DNA of 64,000 bases, from NCBI RefSeq assembly GCF_014196845.1, contig NZ_JACIEM010000005.1:124001-188000 (forward strand), written 5' to 3'. The translations under genes and the position numbers were made by a program. Source of the DNA: Aurantimonas endophytica. GTDB lineage: Bacteria; Pseudomonadota; Alphaproteobacteria; Rhizobiales; Rhizobiaceae. The notes beneath the pieces were generated by a model. The model saw only the letters and a list, made by a program, of their open reading frames with translations, did no database searches and was not told the origin of the DNA. Shown here in pieces: positions 34,979-56,571 of the stretch (positions are counted from its first letter, which is position 1; each line of letters begins with the position of its first letter).

Positions 34979-36994
34979 TTGAAACTGCCCACCATCGGCT
35001 CGATCGGCATGCGCAGCAGGCTGATCGCGCTCGTTGCGTTCGCCATGGTTCCGCTGACCATCGCGTTCGTCTGCTATCTTTGGGTCGATCACAACCAGAC
35101 GATCGCCGCGGCGAAGAACGACGTATACGCCGCCGCGACGCTGGCGGCTGCGACCGAGTCTCGCGTGTTCGACGAAACCAGGACGCTGCTGGAGGCGCTG
35201 GCGTTGGTTCCCGCCGTCGTCCCGACCGGAGGAGAGGCATGCTCTTCGTTGATCCGGCGGATAAAGACGGCCAATCCGCTCTACAACACGGTAGGCGTCG
35301 TTGACGCCGCCGGGACGATCACCTGCCATAACTCGCTGACGGTGCGCCAGGCTCTGAGCGATGTCGATCTGCGGGACAGGATGATGGCGCCGGAGGCAGC
35401 TCAATTTGTCGTCGGGAACTTCGTCATTGGGAAAGTGAGCGGGAAACCAACAGTGATCACTGCGAGCGGATTCCCCCGCGTTCGGGGCGGCTTCGCAGGC
35501 GCCGTCTTCGCCAGCTTGAACCTCGACCGCATGACTGCGGAAATAGAGGCGGTCTCTGACGGCGGAAAAAGGACGGTTCTGCTATTGGAACCAGATTCAG
35601 GTCGCATCATCGTCCATTATCCGCCGCTGCTCGGCGTCCCCTTTGGCGCGCCTTTCCCGGGACACCCACTGACGGCCGCAGTCCGAAATATGCCTGGCGG
35701 CGGAACGGCCGAAGTGGCGGGGATTGATGGCGCGGACAAGGTATTCGGCTTCGCTCCTCTCTCGAGCGCAGGGAACATCGTTCTTGCGGTCGGCGAGGAC
35801 AGGAGCTCGGTGATGGCACCGGTCCGCCATCGGCTAATGCTGTCTTCTGTCGGACTTCTGACGTTGCTGCTCGTTGCAACCTCGGCTGTGTGGTGGATCA
35901 GCGAGCGGATGCAATTGCGCCCGCTTCGACGCCTCATGGACGCGGCGACGGGGATCGGTTCTGGGGATTTCGCCGCTACGGCAGATCTCGAGCCTTGGCA
36001 GGCTCCGGAGCTCCGGAAGCTCGGCCGCGTCCTTGACGCGATGTCGAGGAAGCTCTCGATCGGGCGGGAGGCCGAACTGGTCGTGGCTGCTAGCGAAGCT
36101 CGGTTCCGTGCGCTCGCGGAGAACACTGCCGACCTTATCACGTGGACGGATACTACCGGACGACGCGTCTACGTCTCTCCCGCCAGCCGCGACGTCCTCG
36201 GATGCGAACCGGTAGAGCTGATCAATATGCGACCGCGTGATCTTGCGCACCCGGACGACGTCGGGATCGTCGATGCGATGATGGCCGAGGTGCTGGCGGG
36301 CCGAGCGGTGGCGGGGGTCCAATATCGCGTCGCCCATCGGGGCGGAGGTTTCCGCTGGGTGGAGGTGGCTGGCAAGCCTCTGGAGGCTGGTGCAGGGACG
36401 GTCTTCGTCATGCGAGACTTCACGTCCCGCAAGATGATGGAGAGCCAGCTTGCGGAAGCGAACCTGAAGCTGGAGAAGCTGGCATCCACCGATGGCCTGA
36501 CCGGCCTCGCCAATCGGCGGGCCCTCGACAAGCAGTTGGACACCGAGTTCGCTCGCGCGGTCCGCGCCAAGACCGACCTCAGCTTTCTCCTGATCGACGT
36601 CGACAGCTTCAAGGCCTTCAACGACACGTACGGGCACCCAGCCGGAGACGAATGTCTTCGCCGGATCGCCGAGGCGCTTGAGGGAAATCTGCGACGTCCG
36701 GGGGACTTTACGGCGCGCTATGGCGGAGAGGAGCTTGCGGCGGTGATGCCCGCCACCAGCGCGGCCGGAGCCTTCGAGCGCGCAGAGGTCGTGCGTCAGG
36801 CAGTCCGGGAACTGGCGATTCCGCATTCCGGCAGCAGCCACGGCGTCGTGACGATCAGCGCGGGCGTTGCGACGTTGACGGCAGGGGCGGGAGCGGAACT
36901 GCGGGATCTCGCCGGGTTGATCCAATCGGCGGACGTGGCTCTTTACGGGGCCAAGGCAAAAGGTCGCGATAATGTCGTAGCGGCGGCGGCTTAG
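34979..36994 (+). CDS. Membrane diguanylate cyclase: Cache-HAMP-PAS-GGDEF
   Basis: A 671-residue c-di-GMP synthase. TM1 is at about 13-35; a periplasmic Cache-like sensor reaches about 285; TM2 (SSVGLLTLLLVATSAVWWIS) is followed by HAMP, a PAS domain (RALAENTADLITWTDTTGRR) with PAC, a short coiled linker (AEANLKLEKLAS) and GGDEF with intact A-site GGEEL (582-586). No EAL domain is present, so it should only synthesise c-di-GMP. The frame opens at a TTG (34979); an ATG at 35009 (MRSRL) is a reasonable alternative. It is paralogous to the broken gene at 54.5 kb. Lying beside the bcs operon, it is a candidate activator of BcsA. Confidence 0.9.
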   Translation: MKLPTIGSIGMRSRLIALVAFAMVPLTIAFVCYLWVDHNQTIAAAKNDVYAAATLAAATESRVFDETRTLLEALALVPAVVPTGGEACSSLIRRIKTANPLYNTVGVVDAAGTITCHNSLTVRQALSDVDLRDRMMAPEAAQFVVGNFVIGKVSGKPTVITASGFPRVRGGFAGAVFASLNLDRMTAEIEAVSDGGKRTVLLLEPDSGRIIVHYPPLLGVPFGAPFPGHPLTAAVRNMPGGGTAEVAGIDGADKVFGFAPLSSAGNIVLAVGEDRSSVMAPVRHRLMLSSVGLLTLLLVATSAVWWISERMQLRPLRRLMDAATGIGSGDFAATADLEPWQAPELRKLGRVLDAMSRKLSIGREAELVVAASEARFRALAENTADLITWTDTTGRRVYVSPASRDVLGCEPVELINMRPRDLAHPDDVGIVDAMMAEVLAGRAVAGVQYRVAHRGGGFRWVEVAGKPLEAGAGTVFVMRDFTSRKMMESQLAEANLKLEKLASTDGLTGLANRRALDKQLDTEFARAVRAKTDLSFLLIDVDSFKAFNDTYGHPAGDECLRRIAEALEGNLRRPGDFTARYGGEELAAVMPATSAAGAFERAEVVRQAVRELAIPHSGSSHGVVTISAGVATLTAGAGAELRDLAGLIQSADVALYGAKAKGRDNVVAAAA

Positions 36995-49231: not shown

Positions 49232-50035
49232 GTGTCGCAGAAAATCATCGGCCTCATCGGTGGGATGAGCTGGGAGAGCTCGGCCGAGTATTACCGGATC
49301 ATCAACCAGACCGTCCGGGTACGGCTGGGCGGCCTGCGCTCGGCCCGCTGCCTCATGTGGTCGTTCGACTTCGGCGAAATCGAGGCGTTGCAGCACGCCG
49401 GGCGCTGGGACGAAGCCGCTGCCGAGATGGTCGCGGCGGCGCAACGTCTGGAGCGCGGGGGCGCGGACTTCGTGGTGATCTGCACCAACACGATGCACCG
49501 CATGGCCGACCAGGTCGAGGCGGCCATCGGGTTGCCGTTGCTGCACATCGCCGACCCGACGGCGGAGCGGATCAAGGCCGCCGGCTTCAGAAATGTCGGC
49601 CTTCTCGGTACCGCCTTCACCATGGAACAGGACTTCTACAAGGGACGTCTCGCCGACCGGCACGGGCTCGAGGTCCTGGTGCCGGAGGACGACGACCGGG
49701 CGCTGGTGCACCGGGTGATTTACGAGGAACTGGTGCAGGGCCGGGTCGAACCCTCCTCGCGCCAGGCCTATCGCGGTGTGATCGCCCGCCTGGTGGAGCG
49801 CGGGGCAGAGGCCGTGATCCTTGGCTGCACGGAGATCATGCTGCTCGTCCGTCCAGAGTACAGCGTGGTGCCGCTGTTCGACACCACGGCCATCCACGCC
49901 GAGGCAGCCGTGGATCTGGCCCTCGCGGAAGACAACGTAACGGCGAGCGCGCCGCGCCGCGCCGAATGCGAGGCTTGCCCATGTCCGGTTTCGGCAAGAG
50001 CAATAGCCCGACGGAACGTCTTGGAAGGGTCGTGA
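49232..50035 (+). CDS. Aspartate/glutamate racemase family protein
   Basis: A 267-residue PLP-independent racemase. The two catalytic cysteines are present: Cys84 in ICTNTMH and Cys199 in LGCTEI, with the family start IGLIGGMSWESSAEYY. A GGAGA site precedes the GTG at 49232; the longer open frame overlaps the oxidoreductase gene. The fold interconverts L- and D-Asp (or Glu). It stands alone between the oxidoreductase and a TetR gene. Confidence 0.9.
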   Translation: MSQKIIGLIGGMSWESSAEYYRIINQTVRVRLGGLRSARCLMWSFDFGEIEALQHAGRWDEAAAEMVAAAQRLERGGADFVVICTNTMHRMADQVEAAIGLPLLHIADPTAERIKAAGFRNVGLLGTAFTMEQDFYKGRLADRHGLEVLVPEDDDRALVHRVIYEELVQGRVEPSSRQAYRGVIARLVERGAEAVILGCTEIMLLVRPEYSVVPLFDTTAIHAEAAVDLALAEDNVTASAPRRAECEACPCPVSARAIARRNVLEGS

Positions 50036-50100
50036 GCGGAACGGCAGCTTCCCGGCGTCTTCGTCTGAAACCTGCCGGTCCGCTTTCGGCCCGAAGCGCC
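50034..50100. repeat. Dispersed degenerate repeat, copy 3
   Basis: Shows GGAACGGCAGCTTCCCGGCG, then CCTGCCGGTCCGCTTTCGGC about 20 nt on. It overlaps the last two bases of the racemase stop region and lies in the following spacer. Confidence 0.6.
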
Positions 50101-50202
50101 GCCGGAAATCATTTGTGACGAGGGTGGCTTGCGGGCTTCTTTTACTGAGACGTGGTCGTCAAAGGCGGAATGCCCGATAGCTCCCGACAAGGCCGGCCTT
50201 GT

Positions 50203-50865
50203 TCAAGGGCTAACCGGAACCGTTCGTGCGTCCCACCCGAGCATGGCAGTCTCAGCAACGGACCGCAGCTCCTCCCTGCTGGCCCCGTCGCGAGCCAGGA
50301 TCGACATGCCGCTCTGAACGGTCTGCACGAAGCGCCCTAGCGCATGAATGTCGGTCGATGCCGGGATCTCACCGCTTTCGATCCCCTCGACCAGGCGTGT
50401 CTTGATGCGCTCGAGCGAGACGCTCCGCTCCGCTCGAACCAGGGCGCCGAGCTTGGCATGTCCCTCGCACCCGACGGAGGACAAGGTGACCATGCAGCCT
50501 CGGGGGCTGTCGTAGAGCGATCCTGTCAGCGCATCCGCCAGAGCCAGAAGATAGGCCTCGACGGCCTCTCGAGCCGTGCTCGCTGAATGGAAGCAGGTCC
50601 AGGCGTGGTGCTCGTAGCTGTCGACGTAGTGTCGTACCGCCTCGGCGTAGAGCGCCTCCTTGGAACCGAAGGCAGCATAAAGGCTCGGCGACCCGATCCC
50701 CATCGCCTCCGTCAACTCGGCCATCGAAGTCGCCTCGAAACCCTTCTGCCAGAACAGGCGCATTGCTGCGCCGAGCGCCGTCTCGCGGTCAAACGCACGG
50801 GGGCGCCCGCGAGCGCGTGGTCTGGGTTCACAGGGCTTCGTAATGCGACTTCCATCATATTGCAT
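50203..50865 (-). CDS. TetR-family transcriptional regulator
   Basis: A 220-residue repressor. The helix-turn-helix (RGRPRAFDRETALGAAMRLF, then ATSMAELTEAMGIGSPSLYA, FGSKEALY) is followed by a ligand domain with GCMVTLSSV. It closely resembles the TetR protein at 2.3 kb in layout. The Met at 50865 is the likely start; a longer frame reaches 50928. It is divergent from an SDR gene, and a 13-bp motif lies beside each of the two starts, so it probably represses both. Confidence 0.92.
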   Translation of the reverse strand: MQYDGSRITKPCEPRPRARGRPRAFDRETALGAAMRLFWQKGFEATSMAELTEAMGIGSPSLYAAFGSKEALYAEAVRHYVDSYEHHAWTCFHSASTAREAVEAYLLALADALTGSLYDSPRGCMVTLSSVGCEGHAKLGALVRAERSVSLERIKTRLVEGIESGEIPASTDIHALGRFVQTVQSGMSILARDGASREELRSVAETAMLGWDARTVPVSP

Positions 50866-50929
50866 CGATTGACACATAATTGGATTGACCGCCGCCAACA
50901 AGGACCCTACTTCTGTATCGATCAACACA
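50864..50929. promoter_or_regulatory. Pair of 13-bp direct repeats flanking the TetR/SDR divergent promoters
   Basis: ATCGATTGACACA (50864-50876) and ATCGATCAACACA (50917-50929) match at 11 of 13 positions and are 53 bp apart, five helical turns. One lies at the TetR start and one just before the SDR ribosome-binding site. They are candidate operators for the TetR protein. Confidence 0.6.
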
Positions 50930-50943
50930 GAAAGGGGATGATC

Positions 50944-51684
50944 ATGCAGGAATTGGTAGGCAAGCGCGCTTTGGTGACGGGCGCCTCACGTGGAATAGGC
51001 GCGGCAATCGCCGTGGCGTTGGCAGAGAAGGGCGCCGATGTCGCGATCACCTATTCCGGTTCGGCGGACCGGGCGGCCGAGGTCGTCCGGACGATCGAGG
51101 GGAAGGGCCGCAAGGCGCTGGCCATTCAGGCCGACAGCAGCGATCCAGATTCTATCAAGCGGTCGGTGGAGGAGACGGTCGCAGTGCTGAGCGGTCTCGA
51201 CATCCTCGTCAACAACGCGGGGATCGCGCACTACAGCACGATCGCCGAGTTCGGCGTAGACGAAATCGACGCGCTGCTCCGTGTGAACGTGCGCTCCCCT
51301 ATCCTCGCCGCGCAGGCCGCTATCCCTCATCTGAAAACAGGTGGGCGCATTGTCTCGATCGGCTCGGCGGGCGCCGAGCGCATCGTCGGCGATCCGGGAA
51401 CCGTGTACTACATGACGAAGTCGGCGCTTCAGTCTTTCACGCGCGGCTTAGCGCGGGAACTGGGCCCACGTGACGTCACCGTGAACCTCGTCCAGCCGGG
51501 CTCGACCAACACCGACATGAACCCGGCCGACGGCGAGTTCTCCGACTGGCAGCGTTCGCTGATGCCGCTCGGTCGCTACGGCGATCCGCAGGACGTCGCT
51601 GCGGCAGTCGCGTTCCTTGCAAGTCCGGCAGCCAAGCATATCACCGGTGCGATCTTGAATGTCGACGGCGGCCTGAACACCTAA
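50944..51684 (+). CDS. Short-chain dehydrogenase/reductase, FabG-like (TetR-controlled)
   Basis: A 246-residue classical SDR: TGASRGIGAAIA cofactor motif (11-22), NNAGIAHYS, SIGSAGAE with the catalytic Ser, YYMTKSAL with Tyr/Lys, and the family end ITGAILNVDGGLNT. ATG 50944 has GGGG six bases upstream; ATG 50938 is possible. It is similar to the SDR at 43 kb (shared NTDMNPA/DTDMNPAEG segment). The divergent TetR gene implies regulation by a small molecule. Confidence 0.92.
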   Translation: MQELVGKRALVTGASRGIGAAIAVALAEKGADVAITYSGSADRAAEVVRTIEGKGRKALAIQADSSDPDSIKRSVEETVAVLSGLDILVNNAGIAHYSTIAEFGVDEIDALLRVNVRSPILAAQAAIPHLKTGGRIVSIGSAGAERIVGDPGTVYYMTKSALQSFTRGLARELGPRDVTVNLVQPGSTNTDMNPADGEFSDWQRSLMPLGRYGDPQDVAAAVAFLASPAAKHITGAILNVDGGLNT

Positions 51685-51885
51685 GCCGCACGCCCCTGTG
51701 CCGTCCCACCTGTCGGCACGGGGGCTGGTCACCCGGGGAAGGTCAGTTCAAAATCGTTCGCGATCCAACCGATCGTGACCATAGCGTCGACGGGCGGCGC
51801 AGCCGTAGAGCGGATGCCCGACCCGCCTCGAACGGCTGCTTCCGAGGATCGACCATCAGCCCGGCGAGTGTCTGAGAAGGATCGA

Positions 51886-54237: not shown

Positions 54238-54475
54238 GGTCGATCGTAGCTCCTAAGGGGCGTTACGAACGGACCGTATCACAGCGCGAGCTCTCTGCTT
54301 CGACCCATGCGAATGTCGCTTCTGACTTGGCCCGCATCGATCCTAGCCCGCCCGCCGCCATGGACCTCGATCTGCAGGTTTGGGGAACCGCGGCGAAATA
54401 TTCCCTCGGGAGTGAGGCTTTCCCCTATAGCGAACATCAACGCCGGCGCGCCGGAGGCCGGAAGGAAAGTCCACA

Positions 54476-56571
54476 TTGCTCCAGCCTCGTAAGCCAACCT
54501 CACCGGAAGGTGTCCAGCCAACGCTCTCGGCAGCCGCCATTGCCGATTGGGCTACGGGAATGCTCGCGTCACTGGTCCAATGCGTTGGTATCCGGCCCCG
54601 CCTGCTCGCCGTTATACTCGTCGCCGTCACCCCGTTCGTCGTGCTGATCGCCCTCGAAATCCGGTCCGACTTTCGCGAGACGCTCGCCGCCGCCCGGGCA
54701 GAGGTTCGGACTGCGGCTGAACTTGCCGTCAGCAACCAGTCGCGGGCTTTCCTGGAGAGCCGCGTGTTCCTTGAAACCTTGCAATATACGTCCGCGACGA
54801 TGCTCGCGGGCGGCCCCGGATGCGATCCCACCCAGGAGCTTCTGCTCGAGGCCAACCCTCAGTTCGTAAGAATTGGCATCGTCGACCAGGCCCGGACATC
54901 GATCTGCGATCGTTCGACTGTCGCGTCTGGGTTGCTCGGCGAAACCGTGCTTTTCGAGCGAATGGCTGAGGCTGGCTACGACGGATTCGCTGTAGGCGAT
55001 CTTACGACGGGCCACGCGGCAACGCGGCCGACCCTGACTCTGGCGATCCGAGACTCATCAAACACCGGCTTTGTGTTCGTCGGGTACGACCTCGAGTACC
55101 TGCTCGCGATCGGCGATCAAGACAGACTGACGGCCGGTGCGACCACATCGATGCTGGACAGCCGAAGCGGGCGCTTCGTTGCGGTCGACAAAGCAGGAGA
55201 CGTGCGTCTGACGGACCCCGTTCCCGGCGGTGCGCTGGCGCTTGCCATTGGCGAAGGCCCCCGATCTGGCGTCGCTGATGCGGTAGGCCTCGACGGTGTG
55301 GAGCGTATCCTTGGTTTCGCCGCGCTTCCGGGATCGGAGGGTACAGGATTCATCGCGTCGGTCGGCGTCTCGAAGGCGGAAACGCTTGCCCCGGTTTACG
55401 CCCGTTCGATGAAGGCGGCTGCGACGGCACTCCTTGTCTGCCTTCTCGCCTGTCTGGCGACCTGGTGGCTCGGGACGAGAACCCATGTCGTACCGATCGT
55501 CCGGCTGACCAGGATGGCGAAAAGGATCGGCATCGGCGATCTCGAAACGAGGGCCGAAATCGCCCCTTGGCAGGCTCCGGAATTCCGTCGCCTGGGTACA
55601 AAGCACAACATGATGACTGAGCGCCTGCAGGCGGCCCGGGCGGCGGAGCAAGCTGCCGCCGCACGGGATGCGATCTACAGACTGCTCGCCGAGAATACAG
55701 CCGACGTGGTGGTAAGGATTGATGCTGATGGGACGTGCACCTTCGTGTCGCCGGCTGCGCGCGAAGTGTTGGGCACCGACCCCTTCGACATGCTCGGCTC
55801 CGATCCGACCACAATCAGCATCCCGGAGGATCGCGGCGTCGTGGAGGAGATGATCGCAACGCTCCGAAGCGGCGATCGGGTTTCTGACGTCCGCTTCCGT
55901 GTCCGCCATCCGGTAACCGCTGCGAAATGGGTGGAGGTCACTGCACGGCCGCTGGCCGGCGGCGGCGCGGTTTTGGTCGTGCGCGATATCACCAGGCGGG
56001 TGACGATGGAGGAGGAACTCAAGGTAGCCAACCGTCGCCTTGAGGTTCTCGCGTTTGAGGACGCTCTCACCGGCCTGACCAACCGTCGCGCCTTCGATGT
56101 GCGGTTCGATGTCGAGTTCAAGCGAGCGGTCCGCGACAAGACCGATCTCAGCCTCATCATCCTCGACATCGATCGCTTCAAGAACTTCAACGATACCTAC
56201 GGTCATCCCGCAGGTGATGAGTGCCTGCGCCTCGTCGCCACCGCTTTCCGACACAGTCTCAACCGACCGGGCGACGTGGGCGCTCGATACGGGGGGAGGA
56301 GTTCGCCGCGATCCTCCCCGGAACGCCCTTGGAGGGCGCTGCCGACAGGGCGCAGGCCATCCGCTCCGCCATCCGTTTGTTGAGCCATGAACACGCCGGA
56401 TCCGAGTTCAAGATCGTCACGGCGAGCATCGGCGTGGCGACGCTCGCCGCCGGCTCGGGCTATATCGACGCCGCGGGGATGGTGGAGGGAGCGGATCGCA
56501 GACTCTACGAGGCCAAGGCGGGCGGTTGGGACACGATCCGGGCGGACGCTCGACCCCCAACAGGAACCTAA
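54476..56571 (+). pseudogene. Cache-HAMP-PAS-GGDEF diguanylate cyclase, frameshifted in the active-site motif
   Basis: A paralogue of the cyclase at 35 kb with the same layout: TM1 (LLAVILVAVTPFVVLIALEI), periplasmic sensor, TM2 (AATALLVCLLACLATWWLG), HAMP, PAS (LLAENTADVVVRIDADGTCT), GGDEF. The first frame runs to 56383, but the reading becomes nonsense after DVGARYGG. The true C-terminus (GEEFAAILPGTPLEGAADRA, then IVTASIGVATLAAG) continues in the next frame to 56571. The break is a run of six G (56291-56296) where seven would give YGGEEF, so a single-base loss kills the A-site. The TTG start at 54476 has GGAAGGAAAG upstream. If phase-variable or a sequencing slip, the restored protein would be about 698 residues. 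Confidence 0.88.

Follow-up and report, generated by a model that had tools for sequence, protein, structure and literature searches.

A diguanylate cyclase gene split at its active-site motif

We analyzed a 64,000-nucleotide stretch of Aurantimonas endophytica DNA (the window), which is part of a contig of 603,531 bases in a genome of 5.04 Mb on nine contigs. Positions 56285–56300 of the window read CGATACGGGGGGAGGA. A run of six G residues at 56291–56296 coincides with the Gly-Gly codons of the RYGGEEF motif in a gene encoding HAMP, PAS and GGDEF domains. The features are as follows.

54560..56290, + strand: 5' portion of the cyclase coding sequence, beginning at either ATG 54560 or TTG 54476 (uncertain); from Pfam and the reading frame
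about 55475–55633, + strand: HAMP domain, within the 5' part, after the sensor region
about 55676–56002, + strand: PAS domain, within the 5' part
from about 56054, + strand: N-terminal half of the GGDEF domain, including RPGD, within the 5' part
56291..56296, + strand: six-G run at the Gly-Gly codons of RYGGEEF, with the frame lost behind it; from the sequence
56297..56383, + strand: out-of-frame tail of 28 residues and the stop codon of the long frame; from translation
56296..56571, + strand: remaining, C-terminal half of GGDEF (EEFAAILPG...), encoded in the other frame by 91 codons followed by a TAA at 56569–56571; from Pfam and translation

The long frame has TTG at 54476 as its listed start and ATG at 54560 as its first ATG, and its stop codon ends at 56383. 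At the tract it encodes RYGG, followed by the tail of unrelated residues. The break is located directly behind the Gly-Gly codons; therefore, both Gly residues are still encoded, and the frameshift deprives the active site of its E-E-F. RPGD, which precedes the break, matches the RxxD inhibitory site. The Pfam GGDEF profile (PF00990) matched in two parts, at profile positions 2–81 (E 1.8e-24) and 80–158 (E 1.3e-10), and a whole-genome GGDEF search likewise returned two abutting pieces at this gene. Both pieces exceeded the Pfam cut-off and an ortholog is 79% identical, indicating descent from the GGDEF family; the pieces are in different frames, and the gene does not encode a GGDEF domain with GG(D/E)EF in one frame. 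The original prediction stated that the frame is lost at a six-G tract inside the GGEEF active site, and the sequence, the translations and the split Pfam match bear this out. Its arithmetic was also correct; that is, the frames are one base apart and about 90 codons follow.

Downstream of the cyclase are genes for a GNAT acetyltransferase, an NMT1_3 binding protein and a DctM transporter. The genome contains about 28 GGDEF domains, and the broken cyclase is the only one of the 28 that is split. A paralog at 34982–36988 (+) of the window encodes HAMP, PAS and GGDEF with GGEEL and is 39% identical to the broken cyclase; its match in Aurantimonas aggregata (L168) has an open frame of 328 codons compared with 675 here and may be truncated. 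Window positions 36513–36994, 50016–51875 and 54419–56552 correspond to blocks of 93%, 93% and 82% identity in A. aggregata (G001:C2:146104–153728), where their order is changed. In the comparison with A. aggregata C2:85000–153851, the neighborhood is apparently rearranged between the two species.

Relatives are in frame at the motif

The ortholog in A. aggregata KCTC 52919 (79% amino acid identity over 575 residues) has a single open frame of 711 codons. Its motif codons are CGT TAC GGC GGT GAG GAG TTA without a G tract, which excludes a conserved contingency tract for this species pair. Among the copies found outside the genus, the nearest (56% identical) is carried by the 131,777-base plasmid pSA4125 of Aureimonas sp. 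SA4125; the plasmid name follows the accessible part of the source. The A. aggregata ortholog and 13 of 13 further relatives aligned were in frame through RYGGEE or RFGGEE; these 13 include two paralogs from the same genome as the window and one from A. aggregata. That is, the frame is broken where 14 relatives are intact at the motif, as in a frameshift pseudogene. The comparison among isolates covered one genome per species.

G runs at GGDEF motifs

The codon after Gly-Gly in GG(D/E)EF begins with G, and a seven-G run (GGG GGG GAn) therefore arises whenever both Gly codons are GGG. In seven ORFs of the window, GGG accounted for 83 of 419 Gly codons. GGG GGG occurred at the motif in one of 79 loci (L043–L121), and other cyclases of the genome contain GGG GGC or GGC GGG pairs (L008, L013 and L020).

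We scanned 385 genomes of the class and, in an overlapping sample, 398 genomes of the phylum, both sets including the genome of the window, for Arg-Tyr codons ahead of a run of six to eight G and a fitting continuation with Phe; other motif forms and lengths were outside the reach of this pattern. The class scan yielded seven matches, namely the window and six in-frame seven-G motifs. The phylum scan yielded 39 rows from 28 genomes. Besides the window, 36 were seven-G motifs in frame (35 RYGGEEF and one RYGGDEF), and two rows were dropped: one (G885) translates to RYGGYDF, which is not a GGDEF motif, and for the other (G714:C42) inspection by eye of all three frames on the matched strand revealed no GGDEF domain. 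One seven-G motif was common to both scans, giving 41 distinct in-frame motifs, against which the only off-length motif was that of the window. In the 13 of these 41 whose DNA we examined, the motif was always in frame. The frame was open for at least 85 codons from the Arg in 12 of these; in the other (L147) a stop follows after 27 codons. In L147 (G643:C235) the seven-G GGDEF motif is intact, and homologous sequence resumes in the same frame beyond the stop.

The window contains 11 G or C runs of six or more. GGGGGG matched 12 times on both strands compared with a mean of 52.4 (sd 9.4) in dinucleotide shuffles and is thus about fourfold rarer. The six-G tract in itself is nothing unusual. 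It could derive from a GGG GGG G run by shortening, or from two shorter G runs by loss of the single non-G base between them. In the latter case, the deletion would have produced the homopolymer rather than been caused by it.

Selection and possible decay around the break

Compared with A. aggregata, dN/dS was 0.237 upstream of the break (575 codons) and 0.51 downstream (89 codons). The upstream part has no stops, and its dN/dS is as in a working gene. As a control, we set the remaining GGDEF domains of the genome against their A. aggregata partners in 21 reciprocal pairs, after dropping the 6 of 27 that had no reciprocal partner; in one control pair (L024) the motif was not recognized and the halves were split at residue 80. 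The C-half dN/dS of the broken cyclase (0.482, 77 codons) was the highest of the 22 pairs, with a control maximum of 0.412, and its C/N ratio of dN (3.09) ranked only fourth of 22.

We then assigned the 13 changed C-half residues to lineages. Polarized by the pSA4125 copy, five fell to the lineage of the window, one to A. aggregata and seven were undecided; polarized by the other 12 relatives, the lean was opposite, at three to five. In the K..GR motif behind the C-half stretch, the broken cyclase has Trp compared with Arg in 14 of 14 relatives aligned. Across the two Aurantimonas genomes, this position was Arg in 38 of 43 domains and otherwise Gly or Lys; it was not located in 11 of 54 domains. 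Taken as signs of decay, these differences would lean weakly toward a real and fairly recent pseudogene.

Other lesions in c-di-GMP genes

A GGDEF-EAL gene (L016, G000:C1 about 200080–201310, −) is also frameshifted, inside its EAL domain (profile 3–85 and 83–236), and is the one split among 14 EAL domains of the genome. Its A. aggregata counterpart (L166) keeps a single frame across GGDEF and EAL; relative to it, L016 carries one additional base at a TT pair near C1:200547, which is not a long homopolymer. A. aggregata in turn contains an orphan, decayed GGDEF fragment (L177/L178, G001:C22:3051–3520, −), in which roughly ten bases are missing over RYGG. On this alignment, it is apparently a second GGDEF gene in the genus broken at the motif, by a different lesion. 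These c-di-GMP genes lost nearby in evolution (L016 and L177/L178) count for a reading of gene loss.

Probable loss of function or possible sequencing error

We consider it probable that the frameshift in the window is real and lineage-specific, an ordinary loss of function affecting one gene of a large, redundant diguanylate cyclase family. The product would be missing E-E-F and the second half of the GGDEF domain and would presumably make no c-di-GMP. The loss is probably recent, and the other 27 GGDEF domains would buffer it. This simple pseudogene, which the original prediction named as one of its own refuting cases, is the most likely outcome.

The next explanation, also raised by the original prediction, is an error at the G run in the reads or the assembly, with the gene intact in the organism. 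We regard this as possible but rather unlikely. Homopolymers are the usual place of sequencing errors. The remainder of the gene is open, the upstream part is constrained (dN/dS 0.237), and the same assembly has a second single-base frameshift in another c-di-GMP gene, the GGDEF-EAL gene on C1. However, the extra base in that gene is in a TT pair, and the weak signs of decay downstream of the break (the C-half dN/dS and Trp for Arg) also argue against an error. We used domain families as probes for general frameshift errors in the genome. Frameshift-split domains were found in 0 of 68 SDR and 0 of 50 LysR matches, with all candidates scored, and in 0 of 150 ABC domains, where 150 of 240 candidates were scored and broken pieces may be missed. 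In addition, 8 of the 10 other G or C runs of at least six in the window are inside ORFs of at least 120 amino acids, and five are in ORFs of at least 750 amino acids, these ORFs being mostly predicted. Thus, there is no sign of a general homopolymer-error problem in the assembly; a single error is possible. One match to SDR (short-chain dehydrogenase) at G000:C1:1215589–1216128 (+) contains an in-frame TAA.

Improbable alternatives: phase variation, recoding and a retained fragment

The original prediction also proposed an on/off switch. In such a switch the tract would gain and lose a G, with the OFF state present in the window. The position of the tract would be ideal because a change in length restores or breaks the active site. 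In Vibrio without mutS, nine-base homopolymers in putative diguanylate cyclases are mutagenic, as are some seven-C tracts in other genes, according to the accessible part of the study (PMC5854121). The proposal was not borne out, and we consider such a switch very improbable here. The A. aggregata ortholog, with GGC GGT, is without the tract. Six G is short of the cut-off of seven or more G used for Campylobacter poly-G tracts, and switching was demonstrated there with at least eight (PMC6321876, in the part available). The mutS and mutL genes have open frames of 915 and 622 codons. GGGGGG is depleted in the window relative to shuffles, and all 41 other seven-G motifs are in frame; that is, no varied tract length was observed. 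In hypermutators of Pseudomonas aeruginosa, as far as the excerpted text goes, indels were mostly in homopolymers, with fewer coding-region indels in fitter lines, and the same study noted changes in c-di-GMP pathways (PMC8115180). Among the papers listed in our literature search, mostly outside subscription, none described a homopolymer within the GGDEF motif that switches a cyclase. A broader form of the idea, in which the Gly-Gly-(Asp/Glu) codons are a mutational weak point, lineages toggle single cyclases by active-site slippage and the window is OFF, is in our judgment fainter still.

Recoding on the G run, through either −1 slipping of the ribosome or slippage of RNA polymerase, would yield some full-length enzyme, and a one-base backward slip would rejoin both frames; we give it hardly any credence. 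Over the 80 bases downstream, predicted folding did not exceed that of shuffles (z 0.17), no AGGAG-like stimulator was seen by eye just upstream of the run, and the break is not conserved because the relatives are in frame. Thus, neither feature of a programmed −1 frameshift site, a downstream structure or upstream stimulator on the one hand and a conserved break on the other, was found at the six-G tract. Transcriptional slippage as recorded in the accessible part of PMC1088944, where it rescues 'pseudo pseudogenes', involves nine-base A or T runs, which differ from the tract here.

It is scarcely credible that the truncated protein persists as a non-enzymatic sensor or partner by means of its half GGDEF domain and RxxD site. 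In favor of this reading, no interruption occurs in the upstream frame (dN/dS 0.237), and Shigella cyclases with stop codons before GGDEF still raise c-di-GMP (excerpt of PMC11327459). However, a recent break would also leave a low upstream dN/dS, and in Shigella an internal start gives a whole GGDEF domain, whereas here the domain itself is broken.

Significance and comparison with known systems

The case matters mainly as a caution, in that the homopolymer in the catalytic motif is a by-product of codon use and alone is no indication of a switch. The cyclase and one GGDEF-EAL gene of the genome deserve marking as frameshifted. If a switch were true, it would be a direct means of varying c-di-GMP between cells. 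In that case, it would resemble the phosphodiesterase PdcB of Clostridioides difficile, through which c-di-GMP is varied between cells; PdcB is a phosphodiesterase governed by an invertible promoter, unlike the cyclase tract of the window (PMC9286219, from the part available).

The tract shares with the poly-G genes of Campylobacter its location within a reading frame. In the excerpt of PMC6321876, however, those tracts have at least seven G and vary in length between isolates, whereas the tract here has six. It likewise resembles the hypermutable tracts of Vibrio, where homopolymers are in the coding region of putative cyclases, but the Vibrio tracts are of nine C or nine T in mutS-deficient lines, as described in the accessible text of PMC5854121, whereas the tract here has six G, no length variation was seen and mutS is open.

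The degenerate cyclases of Shigella flexneri, as portrayed in the available portion of PMC11327459, are similar in that members of a redundant family are broken in a single lineage, whereas relatives retain them intact. They are broken by stops, deletions or frameshifts. In S. flexneri, stops precede the GGDEF domain and some of these cyclases still make c-di-GMP, whereas in the window the break is in the active-site motif itself.
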